DNA of 36,021 bases. Origin: Bacteroidota bacterium (GTDB lineage: Bacteria; Bacteroidota; Ignavibacteria; UBA10030; UBA8401). This document shows positions 5,988 through 36,021 of this stretch, piece after piece. Numbering within the stretch: the stretch's first letter is position 1; each line of letters starts with the position of its first letter. Position numbers and translations under genes: made by a program. The notes under the pieces are model-generated. The model was given only the letters and a program-made list of their open reading frames with translations. It was not told where the DNA came from and ran no database searches. The stretch lies in the NCBI GenBank assembly GCA_013361065.1, contig JABWAK010000018.1, positions 1-36,021 on the forward strand, written 5' to 3'.

Positions 5988-6979
5988 TCACACTGCAGGA
6001 ACGTGCACGCGGTGCCTTCCTTGGACTCGCCGTCGGCGATGCGCTGGGTGGTCCGACCGAAGGGAAGACGCCGGAAGCGATCGCGGCACAGTGGGGACGC
6101 GTGACCGATTTCCTTTCGCCGGAGCAGGGAGGAAGCGACGATACGGAGTACGCACTCTTCGGAGCACGGCTGCTGCTGGAGAAACGGCGGATGCTGACAT
6201 CGGCAGATATGGAGGAGGCATACCGTTCCTCCATCATCAATGCAACCAATGCATACAAGGGAGCCGGGTTCAGCGAAGTGATCGCCATCAATCAGCTGAT
6301 CGACGGCAGACACGCTCCGCACTCGGGACAGCACGTCCACAGCTGGAGCGACGGACTGGCGATGCGTGTGGCTCCGTACGGTATCGTTGCGACGGGAAGA
6401 CCGGGGATCGCTGCGAAACTTGCAGCGGCGGACGGTGCGGTGACGAATGCCGGCGAGGGGATCTACAGCGGACAGGCCGTTGCTGCGGCAGTTGCCGTGG
6501 CAATGTCCGGCGGTTCATTGGAGGAGTGTTTCCGGACTGCGTTGCAGTCCGTACCGGGTGATTCCTGGACCTATGCTGCTCTCGAACGGGGGATACGGAT
6601 CGGTTCTGCATCATCGGAAGTGTGGAGTGCGTTGCCGCTGTTGCATCGGTCCATTGCCTGTTCGTATTATCATTGGACCGATGTCGCTCCCGAAGCAGCC
6701 GGACTCGCGTTCGGTATCCTGGCAGCATCCCGCGGCGTGTACAAGGATGCCGTCCTGGGGGCGGTCAATATCGGCAGGGATACCGATACCATTGCTGCGG
6801 TCTGCGGTGCTGTATGCGGAGCGATGCATGGTTCGGGCGTCATTCCTTCCGCATGGTCTGAACGGATCACCACTTCCCGCGGGATCTGCATCCGTTCCGT
6901 ACAGGGAATGAACATCAGAGAGACCGCGGACAGATTAGCAGTGTTATCCGGAGAGATCGATTGGAGTTCTTCGACATGA
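5984..6979 (+). CDS. ADP-ribosylglycohydrolase (ARH/DraG) family protein, copy 1
   Basis: 331 residues, the usual size for the all-helical, dimetal ARH/DraG fold. Both metal-binding signatures are present: SDDTE with Asp 52 and Asp 53, and GRDTDT with Asp 266, Asp 268 and Thr 269. The N-terminal GLAVGDALGGPTEG also fits. Family members remove ADP-ribose from arginine or serine, or split ribosyl bonds in ADP-ribose polymers and related molecules. No signal peptide is present, so it acts in the cytoplasm. The GTG start at 5984 overlaps the stop of the binding-protein gene; the frame stays open far upstream, but that part is a shadow of the binding protein. This copy should be catalytically competent. 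Its substrate is unknown. Confidence 0.9.
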   Translation: MITLQERARGAFLGLAVGDALGGPTEGKTPEAIAAQWGRVTDFLSPEQGGSDDTEYALFGARLLLEKRRMLTSADMEEAYRSSIINATNAYKGAGFSEVIAINQLIDGRHAPHSGQHVHSWSDGLAMRVAPYGIVATGRPGIAAKLAAADGAVTNAGEGIYSGQAVAAAVAVAMSGGSLEECFRTALQSVPGDSWTYAALERGIRIGSASSEVWSALPLLHRSIACSYYHWTDVAPEAAGLAFGILAASRGVYKDAVLGAVNIGRDTDTIAAVCGAVCGAMHGSGVIPSAWSERITTSRGICIRSVQGMNIRETADRLAVLSGEIDWSSST

Positions 6980-8028
6980 GCAGCAACCAGCAACGGGGAC
7001 GCAATGCATTGCTTGGTCTGGCGATGGGGGATTCCCTCAGCTGGACCTCCATGTTCCATCGGAGCGTTCTTCTGCCGCCCTGGACTCGGCGTATCCGCCG
7101 GGAGATGGATGCTGCTTCCGAGTCGAACAATGTCATCGTTACACCAATGCCGTTCTCACTGAACCAGCCTGCGGAGCATTTCGACCTTTCTCCCGCACTC
7201 TGCACGGAATGGTCTGCATTCACAGCAGAGACATTGCTCCATTCCGGTCCGGAACGTTTTGCCGAGGAATTGCTGATTCAATGGAGGGAACTCGCAGATT
7301 CACCGAACCCTGTCCGCGGTTATGTGAGCACTCAGGGAGCATTGCAGAATATCCGGAACGGCATCCTTCCACCGCAGTCCGGCAGACAGCATCCCCATTA
7401 TTTCGACGATAGTGCATTGCTGCGGGCCGTCCCGATCGGCGTCTACTGCGGAAGTGACGGCACATTGGCCGCCCGTCTTGCCGGTCTCGATGCAGCAGTG
7501 ACGAACAGTGAGGATGGGATCTGGGGCGCACAGTCTGTGGCGGTCACCGTCGGTCAATTGACCGCAGGCAGTACCATTGATGCCGCCATGCGACAGGGCA
7601 TCGCTGTGCTGCCGGAAGGTTCATGGATACGGAGATCTGTGGATGAAGCATTCCGTATCACTGCCGGAGCGTCAGCGGTCGTTCCGTTGATACCGGAGCT
7701 CCAGCGGAAGATCGTCAACCGGGAATATTCCTATGGAAACGTTGCTGCGGAGACTCTTGCACTGGCGTTCGCAATCGTCAAACTGCACGGGAGTGAGTTC
7801 AACAGCGCATTGTCGGATGCAACGGCATTCCCAAAAAGCGCGGAGTCGCTTCCGTCCCTCGTTGGCGCACTTGCCGGTGCACACAGCAACGTACCGGTCG
7901 CCGGCAGAGCGTGGACCGATTCCATCACGACACTGAAAGGGATCGCGCTCCCTGCATTCGTCGGGAAGAACTACTTGTCTATCATTGAAGAAGTGCTGCA
8001 GCACGCAGAGAATCGCAGAACATCATGA
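6976..8028 (+). CDS. Degenerate ADP-ribosylglycohydrolase paralogue, probable pseudoenzyme, copy 2
   Basis: 350 residues, alignable along its length with copies 1 and 4: GLAMGDSLSW at the start, the central HYFDDSALLRAVPIGVY and GLDAAVTNSEDGIWGAQSVAV, and the C-terminal GALAGAHSNVPVAGRAW. The metal sites are gone. Where active members have DDTE it reads LCTE, and where they have GRDTDT it reads FPKSAES, so no ligand Asp is left at either place. The frame is intact with ATGA overlaps on both sides, which argues against a decaying pseudogene. Likely roles are a structural or regulatory partner of the neighbouring active copies, or a ligand-binding protein; this is inference. Confidence 0.85.
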   Translation: MSSNQQRGRNALLGLAMGDSLSWTSMFHRSVLLPPWTRRIRREMDAASESNNVIVTPMPFSLNQPAEHFDLSPALCTEWSAFTAETLLHSGPERFAEELLIQWRELADSPNPVRGYVSTQGALQNIRNGILPPQSGRQHPHYFDDSALLRAVPIGVYCGSDGTLAARLAGLDAAVTNSEDGIWGAQSVAVTVGQLTAGSTIDAAMRQGIAVLPEGSWIRRSVDEAFRITAGASAVVPLIPELQRKIVNREYSYGNVAAETLALAFAIVKLHGSEFNSALSDATAFPKSAESLPSLVGALAGAHSNVPVAGRAWTDSITTLKGIALPAFVGKNYLSIIEEVLQHAENRRTS

Positions 8029-9347
8029 CCATCTCCTGGCTGAACATACCGGACCGTATCAAACATGAATTGCGTCAGCGCGAGGAGGAAGGGATCGATG
8101 TCCGCCCGCTGAGCGGGGAGTGGGAACGGATCATTGCATCGGGACTTCCGGAGCAGGAGTTCATTGCGCGCGCTGTGGCGTTCTATCGTCAACTGGAGTC
8201 TCTGCCTGTAACCGTTGCGAATGTTGTGAACGAGCCGTCGGACTGGGAGAGCATCGCTGCTCTTTGTTCCATGCCGGCGGAGTCGAAGCCGTCCCTCACC
8301 GAACCCGAATTGAATGACCGGCTGCTCGGCGGCTGGTTAGGACGCAGTGCAGGATGTCTGCTCGGCAAACCGATCGAGAAGATGACGCGTGAGACGGCGA
8401 AAGAACTCCTCTCGTCCAACGGTACATGGCCCATCTCGGACTACATCAGCGGGAAAGGGATCCCGGAGGACCTCCTGAAGAAGTATCCCTGGAACCGTCA
8501 CTACGGCAAGGAAAGTCTGAAAGAGAACATCGTCTGTATGACGGAGGACGATGACATGAACTATCCGATGCTGAACCTTTCCGTATTCGAACAGTATGGT
8601 CCGCAGTTCACTGCCGGGGATGTTGTGAAGACATGGATGGAGATGGCACCGGTGCTGACCACCTTTACGGCGGAACGGGTTGCATATCACAATGCATTGG
8701 GCGGACTCCAACCGCCCGCCACGGCAACATCCGGAAATCCATACCGGGAATGGATCGGTGCGCAGATCCGAGCGGACCTGTGGGGCTGGATCTCTCCGGG
8801 GCAGCCTGCCAGAGCCGCAGAATTCGCCTGGCGTGATGCCTCTGTCAGCCATGTTCGGAACGGAATGTATGGGGAGATCTTTTTTGCTGCAGTGATCGCC
8901 TCTGCATTCACCATAAAGGATCTCCGCACTTTGTTCACTCAGGGACTCAACTACATTCCTGTGAAATCCCGTTTGGCCGAAGCGCTCCGGTTCGTCCTGT
9001 CGCTTCCGCTCGAATCCCAACCATGGGAGACCACGGTGGATGCTCTGTATGCCAAATTCGGTCGATACCACTGGGTCCACACGATCAATAATGCCGCTCT
9101 GGTCGTTGCCGCGGTGATTTCATCCAAGGGCAATTATGAACAGGCTATATGCAACGTGGTGATGGGAGGATGGGATACGGACAGTAACGGCGCTACGGTC
9201 GGTTCTATTATGGGGACGATGTTCGGTGCCGAGGCATTACCCGAAAAGTGGACCGGTCCGCTCAACGGTACCATCCGCAGCAGTCTGAAAGGATTCGATC
9301 ATTCTTTGTTCGCAACATTGGCTCGACGAACAAAGGCATGTATTTAA
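8025..9347 (+). CDS. ADP-ribosylglycohydrolase family protein, long form, copy 3
   Basis: 440 residues. About 95 residues precede the catalytic domain, including a charged helical stretch (RIKHELRQREEEG) that the other copies lack. The ARH domain starts near DRLLGGWLGRSAGCLLGKPIE. Its metal signatures are TEDDD (Asp 175-177) and GGWDTDSNG (Asp 384, Asp 386, Ser 387), both intact. It belongs to a different branch of the family from copies 1, 2 and 4, with a large insert between the two motifs and an extra conserved-looking segment HTINNAALVVAAV. ATGA overlap with copy 2. Cytoplasmic. The substrate is not known; long-form members are often found in sugar or nucleoside catabolic loci. Confidence 0.9.
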   Translation: MTISWLNIPDRIKHELRQREEEGIDVRPLSGEWERIIASGLPEQEFIARAVAFYRQLESLPVTVANVVNEPSDWESIAALCSMPAESKPSLTEPELNDRLLGGWLGRSAGCLLGKPIEKMTRETAKELLSSNGTWPISDYISGKGIPEDLLKKYPWNRHYGKESLKENIVCMTEDDDMNYPMLNLSVFEQYGPQFTAGDVVKTWMEMAPVLTTFTAERVAYHNALGGLQPPATATSGNPYREWIGAQIRADLWGWISPGQPARAAEFAWRDASVSHVRNGMYGEIFFAAVIASAFTIKDLRTLFTQGLNYIPVKSRLAEALRFVLSLPLESQPWETTVDALYAKFGRYHWVHTINNAALVVAAVISSKGNYEQAICNVVMGGWDTDSNGATVGSIMGTMFGAEALPEKWTGPLNGTIRSSLKGFDHSLFATLARRTKACI

Positions 9348-9381
9348 TAGAGAGATATTGTACTTAATGAAAAGGGATATT

Positions 9382-10374
9382 ATGTTGAAACTGAATGAGT
9401 TAAAAGGTAATGCTAAACTGCTGCATGACCGTGCCTGTGCGAGTCTGGTAGGACATGCCATCGGGGATTCATTCGGGGATATCGCCCGTTCACCCGATTA
9501 TCATCTGCAATACGGTATTACAATGGATTTCACGTCCAAGCCGGCTCCCGGCACAGATGACACGGAATTCGCTCTACTAACCGCTCAGACCCTGATCAAA
9601 GGGAAAGGTGTTCTGACCGATGCACTGGTCCTGGATGCCTGGAAAACCCATGTGCTTCCCCTGTCCGAACTGAAAAGAGGCGGTGCCAGTGAACGGGAAG
9701 CGGCGGCCAACATACGGCGGGGAGTGCTGCCTCCGCTTTCAGGCATTTATAATTCCCATTACATGAGCGATGGCGCCGCAATGAGGGTAACTCCCATCGG
9801 TATCGCCTGTGCCGGGGATCCGGCCAGGGCGGCCGCGCTGGCGAATGTGGATGCCAGGATCAGCCATTCACGGGACGGGCTCTGGTCCGCGCAGTCCGTT
9901 GCCGTTGCTGTTGCCGTGGCCATGGCGGGCGGAACTGTGGATGAGATCTGCACCGAAGCCATCAACATCACGCCAGCCGATTCGTGGATGCGGTTCACGT
10001 TCAACCGTGCATTCGATGTCATCAAAGAGAAGAAGACGCTGGAAGATTGCTGGAAACCGCTGCATGATGTGCTCTGGACGGAGTACAAATCGGTCTCCCC
10101 GGAAGCGGTCGCATCCGCACTCGCCATCTTCAAACTGACGGAGGGCGATTTCAAGCGCGGGATCATCTACAGCGGCAATTTCGGACGGGATGCCGATACG
10201 ATCTCAGCGATCGTCGGCGCGATGAGCGGTGCGATGAACGGAATGAGCGCCATCCCCCCGGAATGGGTGGAAAAGGTCCGGCTGACGACCGGTGTCTGTC
10301 TGCCCTTCACGAAAGGGATGGACCTCTTCGATGTTGCGGACCAACTCTCACAACTGATCGGACTGGAATCGTGA
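9382..10374 (+). CDS. ADP-ribosylglycohydrolase family protein, copy 4
   Basis: 330 residues, close in plan to copy 1. Metal signatures are TDDTE (Asp 59, Asp 60) and GRDADT (Asp 270, Asp 272, Thr 273). The central YMSDGAAMRVTPIGIA and RISHSRDGLWSAQSVAVAVAVAMAGG are well kept. I start it at ATG 9382 because AAAAGGG lies five bases upstream; ATG 9367 and TTG 9358 are in frame but lack as good a site. A 34-base, AT-rich gap separates it from copy 3, the first break in the coupling chain, so it may have its own translation rate. Its stop overlaps the GTG of the citrate lyase gamma-beta gene, tying ARH and citrate lyase expression together. Confidence 0.9.
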   Translation: MLKLNELKGNAKLLHDRACASLVGHAIGDSFGDIARSPDYHLQYGITMDFTSKPAPGTDDTEFALLTAQTLIKGKGVLTDALVLDAWKTHVLPLSELKRGGASEREAAANIRRGVLPPLSGIYNSHYMSDGAAMRVTPIGIACAGDPARAAALANVDARISHSRDGLWSAQSVAVAVAVAMAGGTVDEICTEAINITPADSWMRFTFNRAFDVIKEKKTLEDCWKPLHDVLWTEYKSVSPEAVASALAIFKLTEGDFKRGIIYSGNFGRDADTISAIVGAMSGAMNGMSAIPPEWVEKVRLTTGVCLPFTKGMDLFDVADQLSQLIGLES

Positions 10375-16256: not shown

Positions 16257-16295
16257 CATTACTAAATTCCTAAAACAAGGAGAGGTGTCAGATGA
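16247..16295 (+). promoter_or_regulatory. Internal 11-bp inverted repeat that covers the transposase start codon
   Basis: TCATCTGACAC (16247-16257) pairs perfectly with GTGTCAGATGA (16285-16295). The right arm includes the start ATG (16292-16294), and the 27-base loop includes the ribosome site AAGGAG (16277-16282). Only transcripts entering from outside the element would contain both arms, so read-through mRNA would be poorly translated. The same motif is the inner part of the terminal repeats and may also bind transposase. Confidence 0.6.
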
Positions 16296-17356
16296 CCCAA
16301 GAACAGAAGATCATTAAGAACAAAATCGGGCTGCTGAACTTAGCCCAAACCCTGGGAAGCGTCTCCGAAGCCTGTAAGATCTTCGGATATTCCAGAGACA
16401 GCTTCTACCGGTTCAAAGAGCTGTATGAAAATGGAGGCGAACAAGCTCTCCTGGAGATCTCGCGGAAGAAGCCGAACCTAAAGAACCGAGTCGAATCAGA
16501 GATCGAACAGGCCGTTCTGGCGTTCGCCGTTGATCAACCGGCCTACGGTCAAGTTCGGGTCTGTAACGAATTAAAAAAGCGTGCACTGATCGTATCAGCA
16601 ACGACCGTGCGTAATATCTGGATCCGCCACGGTTTAGAGACCTTTAACAAGCGTCTCTCGGCATTGGAAGCAAAAATGGCTAAAGAGAACCTCGTCTTGA
16701 CCGAGGACCAACTCAAAGCTATGGAGCGCAAGCGCGAGGAGAAGGAGGCCCACGGAGAGATCGAGACCGAACATCCGGGGTATCTCGGTGCACAAGACAC
16801 ATATTACGTCGGCACGATCAAGGGTGTGGGCAGGATCTACCAGCAGACCTTCATCGATACCTACTCCAAAGTGGCGTTCGCCAAGCTGTATGACCGCAAG
16901 AACGCTCTGGTGGCAGCCGAGATGCTCAACGACCGGGTGTTACCGTTCTTCGAGGAGCATCAGATACCGCTGCTGCGTGTGCTGACCGATCGCGGAACGG
17001 AGTATTGCGGCGCGCGAGAATCGCACGAATATCAGCTCTATCTGGCGCTGGAAGACATCGATCACTCACGCACCAAAGCACGGCATCCGCAAACCAATGG
17101 CATCTGTGAGCGGTTCCATAAGACCATCCAGCAAGAGTTCTACCAAACAGCGTTCCGGAAGAAGATCTACAGCACGCTGGAACAACTGCAGGCCGATCTG
17201 GACTCGTGGATTATGCATTACAACAATGAACGGCCTCACTCTGGAAAGATGTGTTGCGGCAGAACACCGATGCAGACGTTCAACGATACTCTGGATATGG
17301 CAAAGAACAAGATGTTAAGCGAACAACATCAAACTGACATTACCACGGCGGCTTAA
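16292..17356 (+). CDS. IS481-family DDE transposase
   Basis: 354 residues, full length and without frameshift. The N-terminal 110 residues are a helix-turn-helix region ([25 protein letters not shown]) and a second helical unit ([28 protein letters not shown]). The integrase-like core begins at about 165 with [11 protein letters not shown]; the catalytic triad is likely Asp in QDTYY, Asp in TDRGTEY (about 231), and Glu in CERFHKT (about 270), with the IS481/IS3-type HPQTNG just before. It catalyses cut-and-insert of the element. AAGGAG lies nine bases before the ATG, but the start codon is in a potential hairpin. Confidence 0.95.
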
Positions 17357-24770: not shown

Positions 24771-25841
24771 TCATTTGAGCAGCTGCATCTTCATCACCTC
24801 TGTGGAACCATTCGCCGTCAGCCGGCAGAGATACATCCCGCTCGGAAGCGCGGAGGCATCGAACGTCCGTTCATATGCTCCGGCAGACTGCCGTTCACTC
24901 ACCAGTGTCTGCACCGTACGGCCGAGCAGGTCGGTCACGGTGAGCGTAACGAAACTCTCCGCTGCGATGGAATACCGGATCGCCGTGGAAGGATTGAAGG
25001 GATTAGGATAGTTCTGTTCCAGCGAAAAGCGGTGCGGAACAGCATCCGTACCGGTCACACCGGTGGTGCTCTTCTGATAGACGCGGACGTAATCGATCTC
25101 GAACAGCTGCGGGAAGGTGGTCGTGGCATCGGGTGAACCGGGCCAGTTGCCGCCGACGGCAAGGTTCAGGATGATGAAGTGCGGTGCACGGAATGCATTC
25201 AGTGCGGTCGGCTGTGTGTTGATCACACAGTACTGCACGCCGTCCAGATACCAGATGATCTGTTTGTCGTCCCACAGGATGGAATAGGTGTGGAACTCAT
25301 CCGCTAACCGGCCGGAAGCGAGTGCTTTGCTCAGACCGTACTGAGCATGTCCGTTCTGATACCAATGCGCGGTGCCGAAGACACGTCCGTCCCCGCCGGT
25401 GGAGGTCGTCGGTCCGCCGATCATCTCCATGATGTCGATCTCCCCGCACGCCGGCCAGCCGACGGTGCCGATGTTCGCGCCGAGCATCCAGAAGGCCGGC
25501 CAGATCCCTTTCCCGTACGGCAGTTTCATCCTCGCTTCGATCTTACCGTAGAGCCATGACTTCTTGGTGTGCAGCCGTGCTGAGGTATACAATTTTCCCA
25601 GGTACGATTCCTTCAGCGCCATGATCTTGAAGACACCGCCGCTCAGAAAGCTGTTCTGCATCCGGCTGGTGTAATACTGCAGTTCGTTGTTCCCGCCGCC
25701 GTTCCCATTCACCTCATATTCCCACTCATTGGTGTTCACGGCTGTGGAGTCGAATTCATCCGACCAGACGAGCGTATACGTCTGAGAAACGGCAGGAATG
25801 GAGATGATGAACAGGAGAAGCAACATTGATACGGCGCGCAT
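24771..25841 (-). CDS. Secreted glycoside hydrolase family 16 with type IX secretion sorting domain
   Basis: 356 residues from the ATG at 25841, which begins a clear signal peptide (MRAVSMLLLLFIISIPAVSQ); the frame stays open further up but adds a non-signal leader. The GH16 catalytic site is GEIDIMEMIG (E-x-D-x-x-E), with WSDEFD at the front and WPAFWMLG and WYLDGVQY as further landmarks. These enzymes cut beta-1,3(-1,4)-glucans such as laminarin. The last 85 residues, SLEQNYPNPFNPST through GMYLCRLTANG, are a Por-type sorting domain that directs export by the type IX system, seen mainly in FCB-group bacteria. A single gene on its strand with no polysaccharide-utilisation partners next to it. 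Confidence 0.93.
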   Translation of the reverse strand: MRAVSMLLLLFIISIPAVSQTYTLVWSDEFDSTAVNTNEWEYEVNGNGGGNNELQYYTSRMQNSFLSGGVFKIMALKESYLGKLYTSARLHTKKSWLYGKIEARMKLPYGKGIWPAFWMLGANIGTVGWPACGEIDIMEMIGGPTTSTGGDGRVFGTAHWYQNGHAQYGLSKALASGRLADEFHTYSILWDDKQIIWYLDGVQYCVINTQPTALNAFRAPHFIILNLAVGGNWPGSPDATTTFPQLFEIDYVRVYQKSTTGVTGTDAVPHRFSLEQNYPNPFNPSTAIRYSIAAESFVTLTVTDLLGRTVQTLVSERQSAGAYERTFDASALPSGMYLCRLTANGSTEVMKMQLLK

Positions 25842-25988: not shown

Positions 25989-26816
25989 TCATGCCTGCAG
26001 GAACATCTGACCGAGCACGCCGTCCCAGTCCGCCTTCGGGAAGTGACGGTGGAAGTTCGGCGCCAGTTCTCCGCCGTCCGCGAGTGTCACGCCGACGCCG
26101 GCGGTGGCGAAGGAGGCCTGTAGCCGTTCCATTTCGCGCAGGATCCAGTTCGGCACTTCATCCGCCGTCAGAAGATGTGTGGTCGCCGTCTCATCCTGTT
26201 CCGCCCGCACTTTCAGCAGCCAGTCATCCTCTTCTGTTCCGTGCGCCACCACTTCACCATCAAGAGGTGACAGGACGCGGACCGCTGCATCGTCGCTCCG
26301 CACGAGCATCCCGCTGCCGTTCACATAAAGCCTGCTGCCGACCGGCGGAAGCTCAACGCTGCGTACCGTACCGAGGATCCTCTTCCCGAAGTCGTCGATA
26401 CCGACGGTGTACGTGCCGTCCTTCTCCTGCTGCACCCATGTGTGGCCGCGGTGATAGAGCCGGTACGGAGACATTGAGAAGCCGTAGACCTGGAAGCCCT
26501 GCATGCCGGGTCTGTGCCGGACACGGGCGTTGATCTGTGCGTGCACAGTGCAGGTGCGGCAGTCGAATCCGTTCGGGCAGGTGCGGTGTTTCACATCCCC
26601 CCGCAGTTCGTGACGGCACGCTTTCAATGCCGCCGGCAGGTCCTCGAAATCGGTATGCCACCGCACATGTTCGATCTGCTCGGGTGTATCCTTTGCCGCC
26701 GTGCGCCGCAGCGCGAGCACCAGCGTTGCCGCCACCATGCTGAAGAGTGTGAAGAAGACCAGAAGGAAGGTGACATGGAACGGTGTCCAATGGAATTCAT
26801 AGACGAAGGGAAGCAT
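25989..26816 (-). CDS. Membrane-anchored glycine-cleavage H-like protein lacking the lipoyl lysine
   Basis: 275 residues. One membrane helix lies at about 14-36. A Cys-rich stretch follows: Cys 67, then Cys 80, Cys 86 and Cys 89 (CPNGFDCRTC), which could bind a metal or an iron-sulfur cluster. Residues about 121-192 are a GcvH-type barrel (HRGHTWV, GTYTVGIDDFGKRILG, VELPPVG, SPLDGEVV). In true H proteins the motif ESVKA carries lipoate on Lys; here the equivalent residues read RSDDA, with Asp 176 in place of Lys, so it cannot carry lipoate there. It is the last gene of a MopB-ferredoxin-NrfD operon and is likely a structural or electron-transfer subunit of that complex. GGAG precedes the ATG. 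Confidence 0.82.
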   Translation of the reverse strand: MLPFVYEFHWTPFHVTFLLVFFTLFSMVAATLVLALRRTAAKDTPEQIEHVRWHTDFEDLPAALKACRHELRGDVKHRTCPNGFDCRTCTVHAQINARVRHRPGMQGFQVYGFSMSPYRLYHRGHTWVQQEKDGTYTVGIDDFGKRILGTVRSVELPPVGSRLYVNGSGMLVRSDDAAVRVLSPLDGEVVAHGTEEDDWLLKVRAEQDETATTHLLTADEVPNWILREMERLQASFATAGVGVTLADGGELAPNFHRHFPKADWDGVLGQMFLQA

Positions 26817-26839: not shown

Positions 26840-28168
26840 TCAGAATAATGAGACAAATTTCTGTATAAGCTGCACGGCGAAGCGGGGACGCAGCCTGCTG
26901 AGCAGTGATTGTTTCGCCGGAACACTCTCCGGTCCGGCGGCGAGGTTCAGTTCACGTTCCTGCGGGAAGACGACCGCATACCGGTAAGTGACGGAATAGA
27001 GGATCACCCCGTACGCGATGACGAAAGCGAATGCGGCCACTTCCTGCCAGCTGGGCAGATAGGTGAGGAACGCATCGAACGGCAGTGTCGGCAGTGCAAG
27101 CGTCTGGATCGTCATCACGAACCGGTTGAGCATGATGCCGCAGCAGACCATGAATGCGGCGCCGAAGAGCAGCCGTCGGTCGGACCGGAGTCTGCTGCTG
27201 AGCAGCACCAGTGCCGGCAGCAGTCCGAACAGGACGATCTCCGTGAAGAGGATCCAGGTGCCGAACGACTGCGTGGCATAATATTCGAATGCCGGGAATC
27301 CCGTTCCGGGCGACGTGCTGTTGATCCAGATGAGCGTATCGATAGATTTCAGAAGAACATAGGCGACCAGCATCAGTCCGGAGACCTTCCCGAGCAGCTG
27401 ATAGACATTCTCGCGGACGAGGCGCTTCCGGGTGATCTTCTCTACCAGCCGTGTGGTGAGCATGATGAAACTCGGTCCTGCCGCCGCCGCAGAGATGACA
27501 AAGAGAAAGAACGTGGAGGGCCAGATGCCGAGCTCTTCACGGAATGCGAAGGGACGACCCCGCAGCACACCGAACAGACCGCCGAGCGATCCCTGATGGA
27601 AGAACGAGAGGAACGTGCCGATCCCGGCGAACACCGGCATCAGTTTATGCAGCTCGAACTCGAAGACGAGGAACTTCGGGATCTGCCGGAGCTGCCGGTT
27701 CTTGATGACGATCGGCAGGTACTCGATCAGCAGCACGACGAGATAGCAGGTGAGGCAGAAGGTCACTTCCGTGAGCATGGAGTGCGTGTTGGGATGCCAG
27801 AAGGTGAACCAGGCGCGGAGCGGCTGACCGACATCGACCATCAGGACGAGCACGGCGCCGCTGTAGCAGATCAGTCCGATGATGACCGCACTGTTGATGA
27901 CGGCGGCGAGTTCCTTCCGCCGAACGATATAGAGCAGGAAACCGGTGAAGAACGCGCCGGCGCCGAGTGCGATCACCGTCAGATCCAGGAAGATCCAGAT
28001 GCCGAACGCGAACCGGTTATCCATGTTCGTGTGGAACAGTCCTTCGGCCAGACAGAGATAGATCGCGTACAGTCCGACGGAGAGCATCGCGAACCACGGA
28101 AGGAGCCAGAGCAGGAACGAGCCGAACGATGTCCGCCGTACGCCGCGGGGGATGAGCAGATTATCCAT
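26840..28168 (-). CDS. NrfD/PsrC-like integral membrane subunit
   Basis: 442 residues with about ten hydrophobic helices across its length. The text LMVDVGQPLRAWFTFWHPNTHSMLTEVTFCLTCYL, FHQGSLGGLFGV and LIWINSTSPGTGFPAFEYYATQSFGTWILFTEI fits the NrfD/PsrC/ActC group. These subunits exchange electrons with the quinone pool and anchor the iron-sulfur and molybdopterin subunits, in some cases contributing to proton movement. The start overlaps the end of the ferredoxin gene by eight bases, showing tight coupling. The direction (quinol oxidation or quinone reduction) is not evident. Confidence 0.93.
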   Translation of the reverse strand: MDNLLIPRGVRRTSFGSFLLWLLPWFAMLSVGLYAIYLCLAEGLFHTNMDNRFAFGIWIFLDLTVIALGAGAFFTGFLLYIVRRKELAAVINSAVIIGLICYSGAVLVLMVDVGQPLRAWFTFWHPNTHSMLTEVTFCLTCYLVVLLIEYLPIVIKNRQLRQIPKFLVFEFELHKLMPVFAGIGTFLSFFHQGSLGGLFGVLRGRPFAFREELGIWPSTFFLFVISAAAAGPSFIMLTTRLVEKITRKRLVRENVYQLLGKVSGLMLVAYVLLKSIDTLIWINSTSPGTGFPAFEYYATQSFGTWILFTEIVLFGLLPALVLLSSRLRSDRRLLFGAAFMVCCGIMLNRFVMTIQTLALPTLPFDAFLTYLPSWQEVAAFAFVIAYGVILYSVTYRYAVVFPQERELNLAAGPESVPAKQSLLSRLRPRFAVQLIQKFVSLF

Positions 28169-28934
28169 GGAAGGCCTCCTGTTGCGTACGGGTCTTGGAC
28201 CGTTCTGCCATCTCCCGGACCCATTGTTTGCTGGAATGATAATGCACTTTCGGTTCCGTGCCGAGACGTGCCAGGAACCGGAACGAGTTCTTGTCCGCCG
28301 CTAGGATGGCGACCGGAGAGGAAGGATTGTTCAGGTCACCGAAGGTGATGGCGGACGCAGGACAGGATTCGACACAGGCCGGAACGTAATCCGCCGGATC
28401 GATCTCCCGGCTGCCATTCGCCGCTGCCTTCTGCCGTGCCGCATGCAGACGTGCATGACAGAAGTTGCATTTCTCTACTACACCGCGCATCCGCGGAGCG
28501 ACATCAGGATTGAGCTGCTGTGTCATGCCGTCGGTCCATTCCGGATCGCGCCAGTTGAAGTACCGGGCATGGTACGGACAGGCGGTCATGCAGTACCGGC
28601 ATCCCAGGCACCGTTGCGGGACCTGCCCGACGATGCCGGTGACCGGATCGATGTCCACTGCATTCTGCGGACAGACGGTGAGACACGGCGTTTCATTTTC
28701 GCACTGCTGACATGACATCGGGACGAAGACCGTCTCGCAGTCCGGATACGCTGCTCCGGAGTGCACGGCGGTCACGTTCATCCAGGTGAGTCCGTTGCGG
28801 GTGGTGGTGGACGGAACAGCCGGGGCGACATTGTTCTCCACTGCGCACGCGACCGTACAGGCACCGCAGCCGCTGCATTTGTCCAGATCGATCACCATCC
28901 CGAATCTATACTGTTTGCGTTCGTTCGTTTCCAT
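28161..28934 (-). CDS. Four-cluster [4Fe-4S] ferredoxin-type subunit of a molybdoenzyme
   Basis: 257 residues. Cys groups for four clusters are visible: CSGCGACTVAC (about 20-30), CQQCENETPCLTVCP (about 75-89), CLGCRYCMTACP (about 108-119) and CNFC with CVESCP further on. This is the DmsB/PsrB/PhsB plan, an electron wire between the catalytic molybdopterin subunit and NrfD. No Tat signal is needed, because such subunits travel with the catalytic chain. It begins three bases after the molybdoenzyme stop and overlaps the NrfD start. The order catalytic, ferredoxin, NrfD is typical of complex iron-sulfur molybdoenzymes. Confidence 0.95.
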   Translation of the reverse strand: METNERKQYRFGMVIDLDKCSGCGACTVACAVENNVAPAVPSTTTRNGLTWMNVTAVHSGAAYPDCETVFVPMSCQQCENETPCLTVCPQNAVDIDPVTGIVGQVPQRCLGCRYCMTACPYHARYFNWRDPEWTDGMTQQLNPDVAPRMRGVVEKCNFCHARLHAARQKAAANGSREIDPADYVPACVESCPASAITFGDLNNPSSPVAILAADKNSFRFLARLGTEPKVHYHSSKQWVREMAERSKTRTQQEAFHG

Positions 28935-28937
28935 GCA

Positions 28938-30680
28938 TCATACCTTTTGTAGTGTCACCGTGGTCGTTCTCCAGTACCCGTCAGCGGAGACGGGGAACAG
29001 GCGGAGAAGGGAAGGGGCGGAAGGATGCCCGGGAGTTTCCGTCCCATTGGGGGAAGGTCCGATGGACGCTTCCAGCACACCGGGACGGACGGCAGGACTG
29101 ATCTTCGTCCGCACCTGTTGAGTACCGGCCGTTGTCGTGATCACTGCCTGGCCGTCGTGCTGGATCCCCACCTGTTGAGCTGTGACCGGGGAGAGCAGTA
29201 TCGTGTTGTTCACCGGACGAAGGTCGGTCTCCTGGAACATCTTGCTCATCACCGGCGAGAGCTGCGCGGCATGAAGGGCTCCATGATATCCGGAGGCGAT
29301 CATCACCAGTCCGTCGTGCTGCTGTTGCTTGTCAGGACGAACAGCGGCGACCGTGACCGGATGCAGACGGTTCTGTTTCTTCTCCTCGCCGGTCCAGAGA
29401 CCGCCGGACGCCAGCGCATTCCAGAGATCGTCGGAGGATGAGAATTCCTTCACCGGTGTGACAGCACCATCTGCCGGGGATTGGACAGAACCGCGTTTCG
29501 AGTCATGGATCCGCTGCACCGCTGCTTTCAGTGAAGCTTCATTCTCCGGGATCTCAGTTCCATTTCCGGTCTTCTCGGCAAGCATACGCAGGACCGTCTG
29601 TGTCTCCACGGCATTCTCATTGAGCGGAAGGATCGGAACAGAGAGCGCAAAGGACGGAACTGCAGAATGGGATGTCACGTGCACATCGCGGAGTACTTCA
29701 AACGGTGCAGGTGCTGGGATGAGGATATCCGCCTCTGCTGTGAGAGGATCGAGCACGGAAGAGAAGGAGACGACGAGTGATGCATCAGTGCTGAGTTTCT
29801 TCCGGATGAGAATCCAGGGAATTGCATAACCGGAGTCTGCTCCGTCGATGAACAAGGTTCCGACGGACCCGTCCGGTATCTCCTGCAGCCGTGTATGTTC
29901 GACTGATTCCATTCCGGGGAGATATTCCCGCACCATGATCCCACCGCGACGGCCGACGCTTCCTAGCAGGATGTTCAGCACGGCGATCACTTTCTCCGTC
30001 TCAGCATCCATCGGTCCACCGCCGGGATCCGCGCCGCACAGGACGATCGGCGCCGCTGCTCTCGTCAGCTGCTGAGCCAGCGTGCGAAGTGTTTCGGGGG
30101 TGATGCCGGTCGTGCCGGCGGTCATCTCCGGTGTGAAATCCCGCGTCAGTGCTGTGAACTGTTCATGGTCTTTGATACTCGTGCGCATCCGTTCCCGGAT
30201 CGTACGCTCCTCCAGCAGGATGGACGCGAGGCTCAGTGCTGCCAGCCGTTCCGTTCCCGGCGCGATAGCGATCCACTGATCGGACTGCCGGGCGGTGCGA
30301 GAATAGCGGGGATCGATCTGTGTGACCGTGAACGTTCTGGCCGAATGCAAAGCATTCATCGTTCCCGGGTTACCCCAACCATCGAACATCGGAGCACCGA
30401 ACGAGAGCAGCATTGTTGCGTTCTGCAGATCGAATCCTAACGATGAGGACGGGATACCGGTCAGCCGGCCCACTGCGCTCAGCGTCTCATCATCACCGGC
30501 TGGATCGGAAACGAGGATGCCCCGTCCCGTTCCGCGCAGGAATGCATGGTACTGTGCAGAGATTGTTCGGCCCGGCTGACGGTCCAGCACCACGATGGAA
30601 CCGGTCGAAGCGTTCATGTGCGCAGCGATCCGTTCCACTGCACGTTCGAGCGGGACGGCGGAGAGCACCGCATCGGCACG
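28938..30680 (-). CDS. Molybdopterin oxidoreductase catalytic subunit, 5' truncated at a contig junction
   Basis: About 581 C-terminal residues remain. Landmarks of the MopB family are present: NATMLLSFGAPMFDGWGNPG, RYSRTARQSDQWIAIAPGTE, IVLCGADPGGGPMDAETEKVI, TAEADILIPAPAPFE, and a C-terminal cofactor-cap domain with RPVNNTILLSPVTAQQVGI. The N-terminal [4Fe-4S] and pterin-binding part is missing because the sequence changes to a different genome at about 30,680; the frame stays open beyond that only because the GC-rich antisense strand has no stops. The separate ferredoxin and NrfD genes downstream put it with Psr/Qrc/ActB-like respiratory enzymes. Substrate unknown. Exact 5' edge uncertain by about 20 bases. 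Confidence 0.85.
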   Translation of the reverse strand, partial: RADAVLSAVPLERAVERIAAHMNASTGSIVVLDRQPGRTISAQYHAFLRGTGRGILVSDPAGDDETLSAVGRLTGIPSSSLGFDLQNATMLLSFGAPMFDGWGNPGTMNALHSARTFTVTQIDPRYSRTARQSDQWIAIAPGTERLAALSLASILLEERTIRERMRTSIKDHEQFTALTRDFTPEMTAGTTGITPETLRTLAQQLTRAAAPIVLCGADPGGGPMDAETEKVIAVLNILLGSVGRRGGIMVREYLPGMESVEHTRLQEIPDGSVGTLFIDGADSGYAIPWILIRKKLSTDASLVVSFSSVLDPLTAEADILIPAPAPFEVLRDVHVTSHSAVPSFALSVPILPLNENAVETQTVLRMLAEKTGNGTEIPENEASLKAAVQRIHDSKRGSVQSPADGAVTPVKEFSSSDDLWNALASGGLWTGEEKKQNRLHPVTVAAVRPDKQQQHDGLVMIASGYHGALHAAQLSPVMSKMFQETDLRPVNNTILLSPVTAQQVGIQHDGQAVITTTAGTQQVRTKISPAVRPGVLEASIGPSPNGTETPGHPSAPSLLRLFPVSADGYWRTTTVTLQKV

Positions 30681-30700
30681 ACGGCCGGCGCATTGTTCTC
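30660..30700. other. Probable chimeric contig junction
   Basis: Left of here the minus-strand molybdoenzyme frame reads as a normal protein in a moderately GC-rich genome. Right of here a plus-strand frame with strongly G/C third positions begins in the middle of a Wzz-like domain. Both genes are cut at the same place, and gene content changes from an FCB-type to a planctomycete-type set. No mobile element or repeat marks the point. Confidence 0.8.
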
Positions 30701-32216
30701 GCGCGTCGCGGCGGGCGAGGTGAAATCCGAAGTCGATCGCAACGACCGCACGCTGCGCCTGATCGTGCCGGTCGAATCGTCGGAAACCGACGCCGCCGGC
30801 CGGCTGGCCACGGCCTGGGCCGAGGCCTTCCTGGTCCGATGCACGGAACTGGCCCGCGGACCGTCCCCCGAAGAACTGGACGCCATGCGCGCGCGTCGCG
30901 ACGAACTGGCCTCCGCGGCCGAAAAGCTGGACAAGGCCGTCCGAGAGGCACAGGCTGAACTCGATGCCGACGCATCGGACGCTGAGTTGCGCCGCCTGAT
31001 CGCAACTCAGGAAGACGCCGCCGGATTGTTCCGCCGCCGTCAGGCCGAGGCCCGCCTGGCCGCCCGTGAATTGGAATCGCTCAATCTGCAAACCGAAGAG
31101 GACGCCGTGCGCGTCATGGATGCGGCCCGCCTCGAAGCGGCGCGCCAAGCCGACGGCTTGCTTCAGACCGATATCGAGCAGCTCGCCCACGAGACCGATC
31201 AGGCCGCCGCGGAACTCGATCGCGTCGTCGCGCGCGTGGCGCCGCTGGCCGCCAACCACGTCGCGCGCATCGAAACGGCCGACCGCAAGACCGAAGAGCT
31301 GCTTCGCAAAGCCGACGAGTCCGACGCCGCGGCGCGCCTCGACCGCATCCGCCGAACGCTGGCGGCTCATTGCGCATCGGTCGAGCGATTCGCATCCGAC
31401 TGGCAGGCGGCCTGGGCGAGCGTGTCCGCCGCGCGCGGCCCCGACCGTGCCGCGACACTGATTCGACAGCAACAGCGCCTCGTGCAGTTGCTCGGCGCTG
31501 CCTCGTCCGCCGCCGCCGAACGGCTTGCCGCCCTTCAAGGCGAATGCGAGGCCATCGCCGGCGGCGGCGTCGAAGACCTGACGCGCCGCATGGTTCTGCA
31601 AGCCGCCCTCAATCAGGTGATCAACCCGCTGCACACAAGCTGGCGCGAAGTCGCCCAGGCCGCGGCAAACGCGGATGGCGCCGTCAACGCCGCACTCGAT
31701 TCGCTGGCGTCGACTATTCGCACGCTGTCCGCCCGCGTGACCGATCGAACCGCCGACATCGCCCTCATCGTCGCCGACGAAATGCGCGCCGAATGGCGGG
31801 CCACGCGCGGCGCCCGACTGGCCGCCGCTCGCAATGCGCTGGAACTGGCCGTTCGCCGCCGCGAAGAAGCCGCCGACGCCTGGTCCGTCGTGCAGGAACA
31901 AGTCAACGACCTCATGAGCCGCATCAAGCGGCTCGACGCCCAGAGAGAGGAATTGCGCCTGCGTCGCGAAGAATCGCAGCGCATCGCCGGCGAAATAGCC
32001 GCCATCGACCGGCGCATCGCCGAGGGCGGACGGCCGGACCGCGCGATGTTCGCTTCCGTCGCGTGTTCGCCCACGTACATCGACGGACCGCCGTTCACGC
32101 TTCGTGCGTGGCGCGCCCTTCAGGGCGGCGGGGCTGCCGCCGCCCTGTGCGTCATCGGACTCTGGATCGCCCCGGCCGTCGATCGACGGCGAACCGCACG
32201 GAAATCCGCCGCGTGA
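30681..32216 (+). CDS. Coiled-coil, Wzz-like chain-length or exopolysaccharide transport protein, 5' partial
   Basis: About 511 residues remain. The start of the fragment (LFSRVAAGEVKSEVDRNDRTLRLIVPV, then AGRLATAWAEAFL) resembles the periplasmic alpha/beta domain of polysaccharide co-polymerases, in which residual sliding-pair text of this kind precedes long coiled coils. Residues about 60-480 are Ala/Arg/Glu/Leu-rich coiled coil. A single hydrophobic helix near the C-terminus (AAALCVIGLWIAPAV) matches the second membrane anchor of Wzz-type proteins; the first would be in the missing part. The next gene is a glycosyltransferase joined by a GTGA overlap, supporting a role in surface polysaccharide assembly. 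Call is tentative. Confidence 0.6.
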   Translation, partial: TAGALFSRVAAGEVKSEVDRNDRTLRLIVPVESSETDAAGRLATAWAEAFLVRCTELARGPSPEELDAMRARRDELASAAEKLDKAVREAQAELDADASDAELRRLIATQEDAAGLFRRRQAEARLAARELESLNLQTEEDAVRVMDAARLEAARQADGLLQTDIEQLAHETDQAAAELDRVVARVAPLAANHVARIETADRKTEELLRKADESDAAARLDRIRRTLAAHCASVERFASDWQAAWASVSAARGPDRAATLIRQQQRLVQLLGAASSAAAERLAALQGECEAIAGGGVEDLTRRMVLQAALNQVINPLHTSWREVAQAAANADGAVNAALDSLASTIRTLSARVTDRTADIALIVADEMRAEWRATRGARLAAARNALELAVRRREEAADAWSVVQEQVNDLMSRIKRLDAQREELRLRREESQRIAGEIAAIDRRIAEGGRPDRAMFASVACSPTYIDGPPFTLRAWRALQGGGAAAALCVIGLWIAPAVDRRRTARKSAA

Positions 32217-33349
32217 CCCGCGCAATGCTGCTGGTGACGGACCTGCAACGCGGCGGCACGCCAATGCGCGTCGTTCGTTGGGCATCGTGGCTGCCTCGCA
32301 TCGGTGTGACGCCCATCGTCGGCTGCCTGGCGCCGCGCGGCCCGTTGAACGACGAGCTTGATCGATGCGGCATCGAGAACTTCCACTGCGACGCTGCAGG
32401 TCCCTTCGATCTGCGTGTCTTCCCGCGCCTGACCGTACAGATCATGCGAAGACGACCGGACCTCGTCCACGCCTTCCTGTTTCACGCCAACGTCGCCGCC
32501 CGCCTGGTCGGCCGAGCGCTGGGACGGCCGGTCATCACCGGCACGGCCACCGTCGAAATCGAGCGCATCTGGCACCGCCGCGTCGAGACATTGACGGGCA
32601 GAATGTCCCAACTGCACGTCGTTAACTCTCACGCCGTCGCACGACACGTCGTGAACGACCTTCATTTCCCGGTCAACCGCGTCGTCGTCGTTCCCAGCGG
32701 CATTGACCTGGCGCACGTCGACGCCACGCCCCCGATCGACCGGAAAGCCTGGAACCTGCCGGATCACGTGCCGCTCGTCATCTGGTGCGGTCGGATGGAT
32801 CCGATCAAGCGCCTGGATACATGGATCGAAGTCTTCGTTCGGGTACGCAGCCAAATGAACCTGTGCGGGGTACTGGTGGGAGACGGTCCCACTCGAGGAC
32901 CGCTTGAGATGGCGTTGCGCGGCCGGGGACTGCTGTTGGAAGCGGGCGGCGGCGCACCGGATCACGCGGTCAATCGGGTCCGAATGATCGGTTGGACCGA
33001 TCAGGTCATCGCCTGGCTGAAAGCCGCCGACGCGTTACTGTTGACCTCCGGTACCGAAGGAAATCCAAATATAGTCCTTGAAGCGATGGCCGCCGGATGC
33101 GCCGTTATTTCATCTGCCGTCGGAGGTTGCGTCGATTTGATTGAGCCGGGACGATCCGGCTGGCTGGTGTCGCCCACCGATATTGCCGGATTCGTTACAT
33201 CCTTGGAAGCAGCATGCGCAAATCCCGCGCTCCGCCGGCGGTATGCGTCTGTCGCCCGTTCCCACGTCGAGCAATGCGAGTCGCCCGATTCGGTTCTGGC
33301 CATGCTGGATAGGGTGTATCAGCGAGTTCTGCGCGATTCGCGTCGCTAA
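32213..33349 (+). CDS. Family 4-type (GT-B) glycosyltransferase
   Basis: 378 residues from GTG 32213 (GTGA overlap); an ATG at 32225 is an alternative. The N-terminal half opens with MLLVTDLQRGGTPMRVV, the Rossmann-like acceptor domain, and includes HAFLFHANVAARLVGRALG. The C-terminal donor domain shows VVVVPSGIDL, VIWCGRMDPIKRLD, GDGPTRGPLE and the E-x7-E region SGTEGNPNIVLEAMAAGCAVISSAVGG, all usual for GT4 enzymes using nucleotide sugars. It should act at the cytoplasmic face on a lipid-linked or surface glycan. The frame is open far upstream only as a shadow of the coiled-coil gene. The 198-base gap that follows holds a hairpin and a promoter. Confidence 0.92.
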   Translation: MTRAMLLVTDLQRGGTPMRVVRWASWLPRIGVTPIVGCLAPRGPLNDELDRCGIENFHCDAAGPFDLRVFPRLTVQIMRRRPDLVHAFLFHANVAARLVGRALGRPVITGTATVEIERIWHRRVETLTGRMSQLHVVNSHAVARHVVNDLHFPVNRVVVVPSGIDLAHVDATPPIDRKAWNLPDHVPLVIWCGRMDPIKRLDTWIEVFVRVRSQMNLCGVLVGDGPTRGPLEMALRGRGLLLEAGGGAPDHAVNRVRMIGWTDQVIAWLKAADALLLTSGTEGNPNIVLEAMAAGCAVISSAVGGCVDLIEPGRSGWLVSPTDIAGFVTSLEAACANPALRRRYASVARSHVEQCESPDSVLAMLDRVYQRVLRDSRR

Positions 33350-33420
33350 GAAAATTCTTGTGCGTCCAATCCGACGCTAGCTTTCCATTTGACAAAAGCT
33401 TGTGAATTCAGCGCGAGATT

Positions 33421-33447
33421 GCCGAAAAATATTCGCATATTTTCGGC
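33421..33447. terminator. Hairpin after the glycosyltransferase gene
   Basis: GCCGAAAAATA pairs with TATTTTCGGC around a short loop, one bulged A. It lies 72 bases past the glycosyltransferase stop and just before the mraZ promoter. Without a following T-run it is a possible rather than certain terminator. Confidence 0.5.
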
Positions 33448-33457
33448 GGATTCAGTC

Positions 33458-33486
33458 TTGCACCTTGTGTCATAAAGTGGTATGCT
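33458..33486 (+). promoter_or_regulatory. Sigma70-like promoter for mraZ
   Basis: TTGCAC (33458-33463), a 17-base spacer, then TATGCT (33481-33486), 62 bases before the mraZ start. AAAGTGG (33474-33480) lies inside the spacer and recalls the repeated AAAGTG-type sites that MraZ binds in Mollicutes, but only one copy is obvious, so autoregulation is speculative. Confidence 0.55.
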
Positions 33487-33547
33487 TTCCCATACAGAGC
33501 CAAGGCGTGGCAGAAAGCACTGAAGCTATCCATGATCGCCGGATGTC

Positions 33548-34057
33548 ATGTTCTTTACCGGAACCTCTGAGCACACGATCGACGACAAGAACCGGGTCAG
33601 CATTCCGGCCGTGCATCGAAACCAACTGAAGGACGCTCCCGAGGGCAACCTCTGGTTCGTCGTACCGGGAAACGCCGCTCGCTCGTTACGACTATACCCG
33701 GCGAGCTGCTTCAAGGAAATGTCTCGCGCCATCGAAGGCGGCTGGTTCGCGCCGGAAGAAGTGCAGGAGTTTGAGGACACGCTGATGGCCTTCGCCGAGC
33801 GCGCCGAAGTCGATTCGGCCGGTCGAATCGTCCTTCCGGCCGGTCACGTTCGTCGCGCGAACTTGGGACGGGAAGTGACGATCGCCGGTTCGCGAGATCA
33901 CTTGACGATCCACGACCGCGAGGCGTTCGCCACGCAGAGCGACGAAAAATGGCGTGATTACCCGGACACCGTGCGCAAGGCTCGACAGGCGGCGAAATCC
34001 AGATGGCGGCAACCCGGGCGCGAAGCCGGCGGCGGCAACGGCCCGGTAGAAACCTGA
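33548..34057 (+). CDS. mraZ: MraZ transcriptional regulator of the division and cell-wall cluster
   Basis: 169 residues, slightly longer than the usual 140-150 because of a basic, Gly-rich tail (ARQAAKSRWRQPGREAGGGNG). MraZ has two AbrB/SpoVT-like half-domains; the first is MFFTGTSEHTIDDKNRVSIPAVHR and the second is centred on EVDSAGRIVLPAGHVRRANLGREVTIAG (about 95-122). The protein forms a ring that binds DNA upstream of its own operon and represses or tunes dcw expression. It is followed, after a structured 320-base leader, by rsmH, the standard order at the start of the dcw cluster. The ribosome site is weak (CCGGATGTC). Confidence 0.95.
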   Translation: MFFTGTSEHTIDDKNRVSIPAVHRNQLKDAPEGNLWFVVPGNAARSLRLYPASCFKEMSRAIEGGWFAPEEVQEFEDTLMAFAERAEVDSAGRIVLPAGHVRRANLGREVTIAGSRDHLTIHDREAFATQSDEKWRDYPDTVRKARQAAKSRWRQPGREAGGGNGPVET

Positions 34058-34358
34058 TCACGCGTTGCGTTTGGGCATGCGTGATGAGGACGTGTTTGAG
34101 TCCGGGATTCCGGGGAGGTTCGTTCGCGCGGGCCTCCCCGGCTCCCATCCCGGCCGGCGGGCGGAAGTACTCTCGATCGTTCGACACAGTGCGATTCGGG
34201 CGGAGGTCCCGGAGCAGCCGCAGGGTGGAACCCGATCGGCCTCGGAGAGGCCGCTAAGCATCGTCTTCATACGATTCGCGCTTGTCGATTGGTGATTCCA
34301 ACCCTTGTGTTGGGCCGACCTGTTCCGTCACGGAGGGTGGACAGGTCGGGCTTTTCTT
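34057..34358 (+). promoter_or_regulatory. Structured leader between mraZ and rsmH with a terminator-like final hairpin
   Basis: This 320-base gene-free stretch has four perfect stems: ATCACGC/GCGTGAT (34057-34063 with 34079-34085), CCGGGGAGG/CCTCCCCGG (34110-34118 with 34133-34141), CGGCCTC/GAGGCCG with loop GGA (34237-34253), and CCGACCTGT/ACAGGTCGG (34315-34323 with 34341-34349). The last is followed by GCTTTTCTT, the form of an intrinsic terminator, and ends about 20 bases before the rsmH start. High GC makes some stems likely by chance, but the last looks functional. I see no coding sequence I believe in here. Confidence 0.55.
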
Positions 34359-34377
34359 GCCCCCCGGGGGCGCTCCC

Positions 34378-35307
34378 GTGAACCAGCCGACCGGCGGTCA
34401 TTGGCCCGTGCTGGTCCGCGACGTCGAGACCTGGCTGACGCCGGTCATCGAACGCCGCTGGATCGACTGCACGATCGGCCTGGGCGGCCACGCCCGCGCC
34501 TTGTTCGAGCGGGCGCCCGCCGTAGTACGCCTGCTGGCCCTCGATGTCGACGAAGAAAACCTGGCCGCGGCCATCAGTAACCTGGACGCTTATCGCGACC
34601 GCGTCGACGCCGTATGTGGCAACTTTCGCGACCTCGGCGACATCCTGTCGCGGCACGGCATCGAACCGGCGGACGCAATCCTCGCGGACCTGGGCTTCAG
34701 CAGCAATCAGGTCGCCGACCCCGGCCGCGGCCTCAGTTTCGAGCTGGACGGCCCGCTCGACATGCGCCTGGATCGGACGCTGCGAACAACCGCGGCCGAC
34801 CTGGTCAACCGGCTGGGCGAAAAGCAGCTCGCCGATCTACTTTACTTCGAGAGTCAGGAACCGTTCAGCCGAAGAATCTCGAAGCTCATCTGCCGCGCGC
34901 GGCGCGACGCGCGCATCACGACCACGTCCCAACTGGCGGCGATCGTGACGCGTGCCGTCGGCGGACGGCGAGGCCGGCTGCACCCGGCCACTCGCACCTT
35001 TCTCGCGCTCCGGGCGGCGGTCAATCGCGAGGGCGAAGCCCTGGACGAACTGCTGGCCGCGGCGCCGGCGGCCCTGCGGCCCGGCGGACGCATCGCGATC
35101 ATCAGCTTTCACAGCGGCGAGGACCGCCGCGTGAAAGAGAGCTTCCGGCGAAACGCCAGGCTGGGCGTTTACCGGCTGTTGACGCGTTCGCCGGTGACGG
35201 CCGACGACGAGGAGGCGTCCGCAAATCCGCGGTCGCGCTCGGCCAAGTTGCGTGTGGCGGAGCGGACGGACGTCCCGCTTTCAGAAGTGTCGGCCGAAAC
35301 GCGTTGA
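34378..35307 (+). CDS. rsmH: 16S rRNA (cytosine(1402)-N(4))-methyltransferase RsmH (MraW)
   Basis: 309 residues from GTG 34378, where GGGGG precedes it and the canonical GHWPVLVRDVETWL opening follows; a TTG at 34282 would add 32 unrelated residues overlapping the hairpins. SAM-binding and family text: IDCTIGLGGHARAL, LALDVDEENL, DAILADLGFSSNQVADPGRGLSFELDGPLDMRLD, HPATRTFLALRAAVNREGEALDELLAAAP and GRIAIISFHSGEDRRVKESFR. It methylates N4 of C1402 in 16S rRNA using S-adenosylmethionine. It follows mraZ as usual in the dcw cluster. The usual downstream ftsL is not recognisable by sequence; a 225-base gap follows, in which I see no convincing gene. Confidence 0.95.
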   Translation: MNQPTGGHWPVLVRDVETWLTPVIERRWIDCTIGLGGHARALFERAPAVVRLLALDVDEENLAAAISNLDAYRDRVDAVCGNFRDLGDILSRHGIEPADAILADLGFSSNQVADPGRGLSFELDGPLDMRLDRTLRTTAADLVNRLGEKQLADLLYFESQEPFSRRISKLICRARRDARITTTSQLAAIVTRAVGGRRGRLHPATRTFLALRAAVNREGEALDELLAAAPAALRPGGRIAIISFHSGEDRRVKESFRRNARLGVYRLLTRSPVTADDEEASANPRSRSAKLRVAERTDVPLSEVSAETR

Positions 35308-35532
35308 CCGCCGGCCGCCTCGCGATCATGGTGGATGTGCGGACGTATCGGGACTCATCGCGCATAGCGCGGAACCGCGGTACGGGCATGCATCAGGCGG
35401 CGCCGCGCGGCGGACCCGCAAGTGACGTTCGCGAAATTGAATCTGATACTTGAAAAGCGCGTGCATTCGCGCGACGACCGGATAACATTCAGCGCCGTAT
35501 GTTGACTCGTTCCGACGACAGGGAGGTTTCGG

Positions 35533-36021
35533 GTGTCTACTGAGAGCAGGCTGGGACTTTTCATCGGGTTTGTCTTCATCGTTCTTTTCGCCGTCGTGAT
35601 GTTCGGACCCGCCTCGTCGAACCAGCGGAACCAGCCCGCGATGTTCGGCGCTTCGGAGTCCGTCAAACCCAACGAGCCGCTGGCCGCCGGCGCGCAGGGC
35701 GATCCGTCGTCGAACGGCGCCGGTCGCCTCAACGTCACGCGCAATCTGCCCGCGCCGCGCACCGTCGGCACGCAGACGCCCCAGCCGACGCCGCCCGCCG
35801 CTCAAGCGGAAGAAGACGACACGTCGCTGATCAGCGACCGCATGATGGTGCACGCCGAGCCGCGAGAGACCGGCCTGCCCGTCGTTCCGACCTCAGTCGA
35901 ACGCAACGCCCCCCACGAGCAATTGGCGGACGCGTCGCGCGCCGCCGGTCACGACGACGCGACGCGACCGCCGACAGGCGTCGATTCCCCGGCCGCATCG
36001 GCGGCCGCCGCCGCTGCACCG
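35533..36021 (+). CDS. N-terminally membrane-anchored, low-complexity protein, 3' partial
   Basis: The frame runs off the right edge; 163 codons are present. GTG at 35533 has GGGAGG seven bases upstream. A single membrane helix (LGLFIGFVFIVLFAVVMFG) begins after seven residues, with a short cytoplasmic head, type II topology. The rest is a periplasmic Pro/Ala/Thr/Asp-rich region (about residues 30-163) ending in an Ala run, as in linkers leading to a folded domain. Its place after rsmH suggests a division or peptidoglycan-associated protein, possibly with a LysM-type domain beyond the window; that is a guess from position. Confidence 0.7.
   Translation, partial: MSTESRLGLFIGFVFIVLFAVVMFGPASSNQRNQPAMFGASESVKPNEPLAAGAQGDPSSNGAGRLNVTRNLPAPRTVGTQTPQPTPPAAQAEEDDTSLISDRMMVHAEPRETGLPVVPTSVERNAPHEQLADASRAAGHDDATRPPTGVDSPAASAAAAAAP

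Follow-up and report, generated by a model that had tools for sequence, protein, structure and literature searches.

A planctomycete segment joined in mid-gene to FCB-type DNA in a contig of a bacterial draft genome

The window, that is, the whole stretch of DNA analysed here, comprises the entire contig C2 (36,021 bp) of the draft genome G000. This genome spans 3.81 Mb in 288 contigs, with a completeness of 97.6% and a contamination of 1.75%; its fragmentation and these quality figures suggest that it is metagenome-assembled. The left part of the contig (1-30,664) is native to an FCB-type organism, with a GC content of about 0.57 and a uniformly native composition. A Por_Secre_tail domain is encoded at 24,789-25,010, and type IX sorting domains are found at about 145 other places in G000, which fits the FCB label that a preliminary description had given to this side for such a domain. 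At 6,000-10,374, four consecutive genes resemble, by eye, those of ADP-ribosylglycohydrolase-type proteins; they are preceded by sugar ABC transporter-like genes and followed by citrate lyase-like genes, one of which matches CitF alpha with 491.5 bits, slightly below the cut-off. An IS481 family transposase is encoded at 16,292-17,356, 13-14 kb from the join described below.

The left part ends in a cluster of genes on the minus strand. The qrcD gene (26,840-28,168) encodes an NrfD-like membrane subunit and exceeds the NCBIfam QrcD cut-off (577.7 bits against 570). The qrcC-like gene (28,161-28,934) encodes an iron-sulphur subunit with matches to Pfam 4Fe-4S families and adjoins both qrcD and a molybdopterin-family gene (28,938-30,683), of which only the 3' portion, about 83%, is present. 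On homology, this cut gene is qrcB-like and would belong to a Qrc-type menaquinone reductase, matching NCBIfam QrcB with an E value of 1.9e-44, below the curated cut-off. The qrc genes are common to G000 and the genomes of the same genus, and intact QrcB homologues are present in relatives. These homologues are 704-718 aa long and the fragment in the window about 582 aa, so that QrcB has lost about 118 aa or more, about 17%. The N-terminal loss described earlier for a minus-strand molybdoenzyme is thus real, but it does not amount to half of the protein. Two proteins flank the qrc genes (window 25,989-26,816 and L025:5,633-6,643): PF01597, the glycine-cleavage H-protein family, is matched by one of them, and the other, similar by eye, recurs beside qrcA in the relatives G006 and G010.

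The start of qrcB has been found on a second G000 contig, C19. Its final bases (7,245-7,373 of 7,373) encode 43 aa of the QrcB N-terminus, which are 83-90% identical to the same-genus relatives. Upstream, C19 carries a qrcA-like cytochrome gene, whose product of 193 aa contains 5 CxxCH motifs. Seven relatives, including G006, G010 and G003, have the cytochrome gene, then the qrcB start and then the remainder of qrcB, and the gap between the two qrcB pieces is a constant 225 bp or so. This spacing indicates that the native qrcB was broken in assembly and its loose end joined to foreign DNA. The adjacency of C19 and C2 rests on synteny in relatives, because the two contigs do not overlap. Treated as neighbours, as they should be, they provide a nearly complete qrc gene set, in which the QrcA cytochrome, QrcB, the iron-sulphur protein QrcC and QrcD are encoded together at the level of genes. 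This qrcABCD-like set (window 26,840-30,683 and C19 5,633-7,373) occurs in an FCB-type genus without a dsrA match. Blakebacterota, of the FCB superphylum, have been reported to carry Qrc but not Dsr (PMC9727166).

The right part of the window (30,674-36,021) is identical to WYBU01000034.1, a contig of Planctomycetaceae bacterium PLA4, over 5,348 of 5,348 bases (100%). This contig, which encodes an identical RsmH, was found by searching one genome per species, among the matches listed. It runs on past both ends of the common segment, and its locus is referred to as L029. The suggestion that this side is planctomycete-like has therefore been borne out by full identity to a named planctomycete genome. 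The segment begins on the plus strand with the 3' part of a membrane coiled-coil gene (30,674-32,216), which is followed by a group 1 glycosyltransferase gene (32,213-33,349; Pfam PF13692/PF00534), mraZ (33,548-34,057; Pfam PF02381, with the NCBIfam MraZ match below cut-off) and rsmH, also known as mraW (34,378-35,307; TIGR00006 above cut-off), all on the plus strand. The last two are the markers expected from the dcw genes announced for this side. Homologues of the glycosyltransferase lie upstream of rsmH in the planctomycete loci L032 and L033; the arrangement is therefore native to planctomycetes. Further near-identical PLA4 DNA was not detected in G000, where the best matches reached only 69-74%. 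DNA of the left part was not found in PLA4, in a search run without a positive control, and a literature search on the PLA4 record or its study returned nothing.

In PLA4, the coiled-coil gene is intact as an unbroken ORF of 802 aa (L029:5,443-7,851) that runs across the join point. The window retains residues 289-802, and 288 of the 802 aa are lost at the start, as had been noticed for a plus-strand gene without its beginning. The protein has a charged coiled-coil-like region between two hydrophobic stretches. Its earlier designation as Wzz-like is a guess, because Pfam gave no match and NCBIfam only an SMC-related family below cut-off. No homologues were detected in other planctomycete loci at E<1e-5.

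The transition between the two parts was located by base-by-base comparison with L029, in which the window reads GCACCGCATCGGCACGACGGCC and PLA4 reads GCACCGCACCGGCACGACGGCC. Left of 30,665, identity to the PLA4 contig falls to 32-36%, which is background. At 30,665-30,686 both share the stretch GCACCGCA-[T/C]-CGGCACGACGGCC, and at 30,673 the window has a T that differs from the PLA4 base. QrcB homology to the closest relative, G006, extends to the codon at 30,681-30,683. Together with the T at 30,673, this places the switch inside the short common stretch. The clearly native sequence probably ends with that T, and the alignment would be explained most simply by a switch point just after it. 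The interval of 30,660-30,700 proposed at the outset is thereby narrowed to 30,665-30,686, most likely 30,673/30,674. Two genomes do meet here in mid-gene, as first described, with a minus-strand and a plus-strand gene both interrupted at one position. Each side derives from a source genome of its own, the right identical to PLA4 and the left native to the genus of G000, and the true neighbours of both have been found elsewhere: the end of C19 for the left, and L029 upstream of 6,309 for the right.

Composition changes at the same place. GC content steps from about 0.59 to about 0.69 at the join, in agreement with the shift originally noted. A second-order Markov model was trained on 22 other G000 contigs (207 kb) against 15 kb of PLA4 sequence flanking the common segment, with the window and that segment kept out of training. 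The maximum-likelihood change point lies at about 30,672. Scores below zero were obtained for five of the six pieces right of the join but for none of the 197 native 1-kb pieces; the single right-hand piece scoring native, around 32,700-33,700, is AT-richer.

These data indicate, with near certainty, that C2 is a chimera of FCB DNA and PLA4 DNA, formed in silico or through a chimeric library molecule. Assembler error and a chimeric library molecule are both compatible with the evidence. Very recent cross-phylum transfer, in which a planctomycete cell-wall-cluster segment of at least 5.3 kb would have been inserted into the FCB qrcB with C19 on the far side, is very unlikely. C19, with the qrcB start, and C2, with the remainder, could in principle flank such an insert, but C19 terminates in native qrcB rather than in planctomycete DNA. 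As to a second boundary leading back into host DNA, C2 stops within the planctomycete segment and C19 within native qrcB. Transfer would also have to account for 100% identity to the core cell-wall-cluster genes of another phylum, and would have destroyed qrcB and cost 225 bp. The recipient, moreover, already has rsmH: the native gene lies on contig C143 (9,012-9,923) and is 39% identical to the planctomycete copy, giving G000 two copies, whereas 20 relatives have a single locus apiece, which in two of them, both fragmented assemblies, is split over two pieces. An integration gene, a tRNA target and att repeats were sought at the boundary and none was found, nor were any convincing repeats at the join; the absence of an integrase, repeat or att-like site had already been remarked, and a tRNA can be added to it. 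Transfer with att-like sites was accordingly rejected. The PLA4 identity, the continuation on C19 and the native rsmH, all independent of composition, make an assembly join far likelier than transfer, as the preliminary description had held. The converse, a chimeric PLA4 contig and a right part that derives from the FCB organism, is hardly conceivable. Both are metagenome assemblies, but no support for this was found: the ORF in PLA4 runs through the point unbroken, both PLA4 flanks match the segment and not G000 in composition, the order of glycosyltransferase and rsmH recurs in other planctomycetes, and G000 has its own rsmH.

Formation of the chimera may be envisaged as follows. The FCB bacterium and the planctomycete PLA4 would have been present in one sample or in related samples; the assembly of the FCB chromosome would have broken within qrcB, leaving about 225 bp unassembled; and the loose qrcB end would then have been joined to PLA4 DNA at the short common stretch, which, being GC-rich and near-identical, could have guided a false overlap.

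The finding is an ordinary one, a misjoin of a known kind and not a real biological feature. C2 is an artefact misjoined in mid-gene, and therefore nothing across the join counts as biology. G000 should be cleared of the 5.3 kb to the right of 30,674, which contributes a false rsmH, mraZ, glycosyltransferase and gene context. Even where marker scores are good, a genome can contain a cross-phylum contig. Misassembly is a known, relatively rare source of chimeric contigs (PMC8201837). Like the chimeric contigs defined in the GUNC paper (PMC8201837), C2 unites fragments from two sources, in a genome whose completeness and contamination (97.6% and 1.75%) still look good. It differs from them in nothing of note; for C2, the source DNA of the right side can be named, and the left side can be traced to a sister contig.
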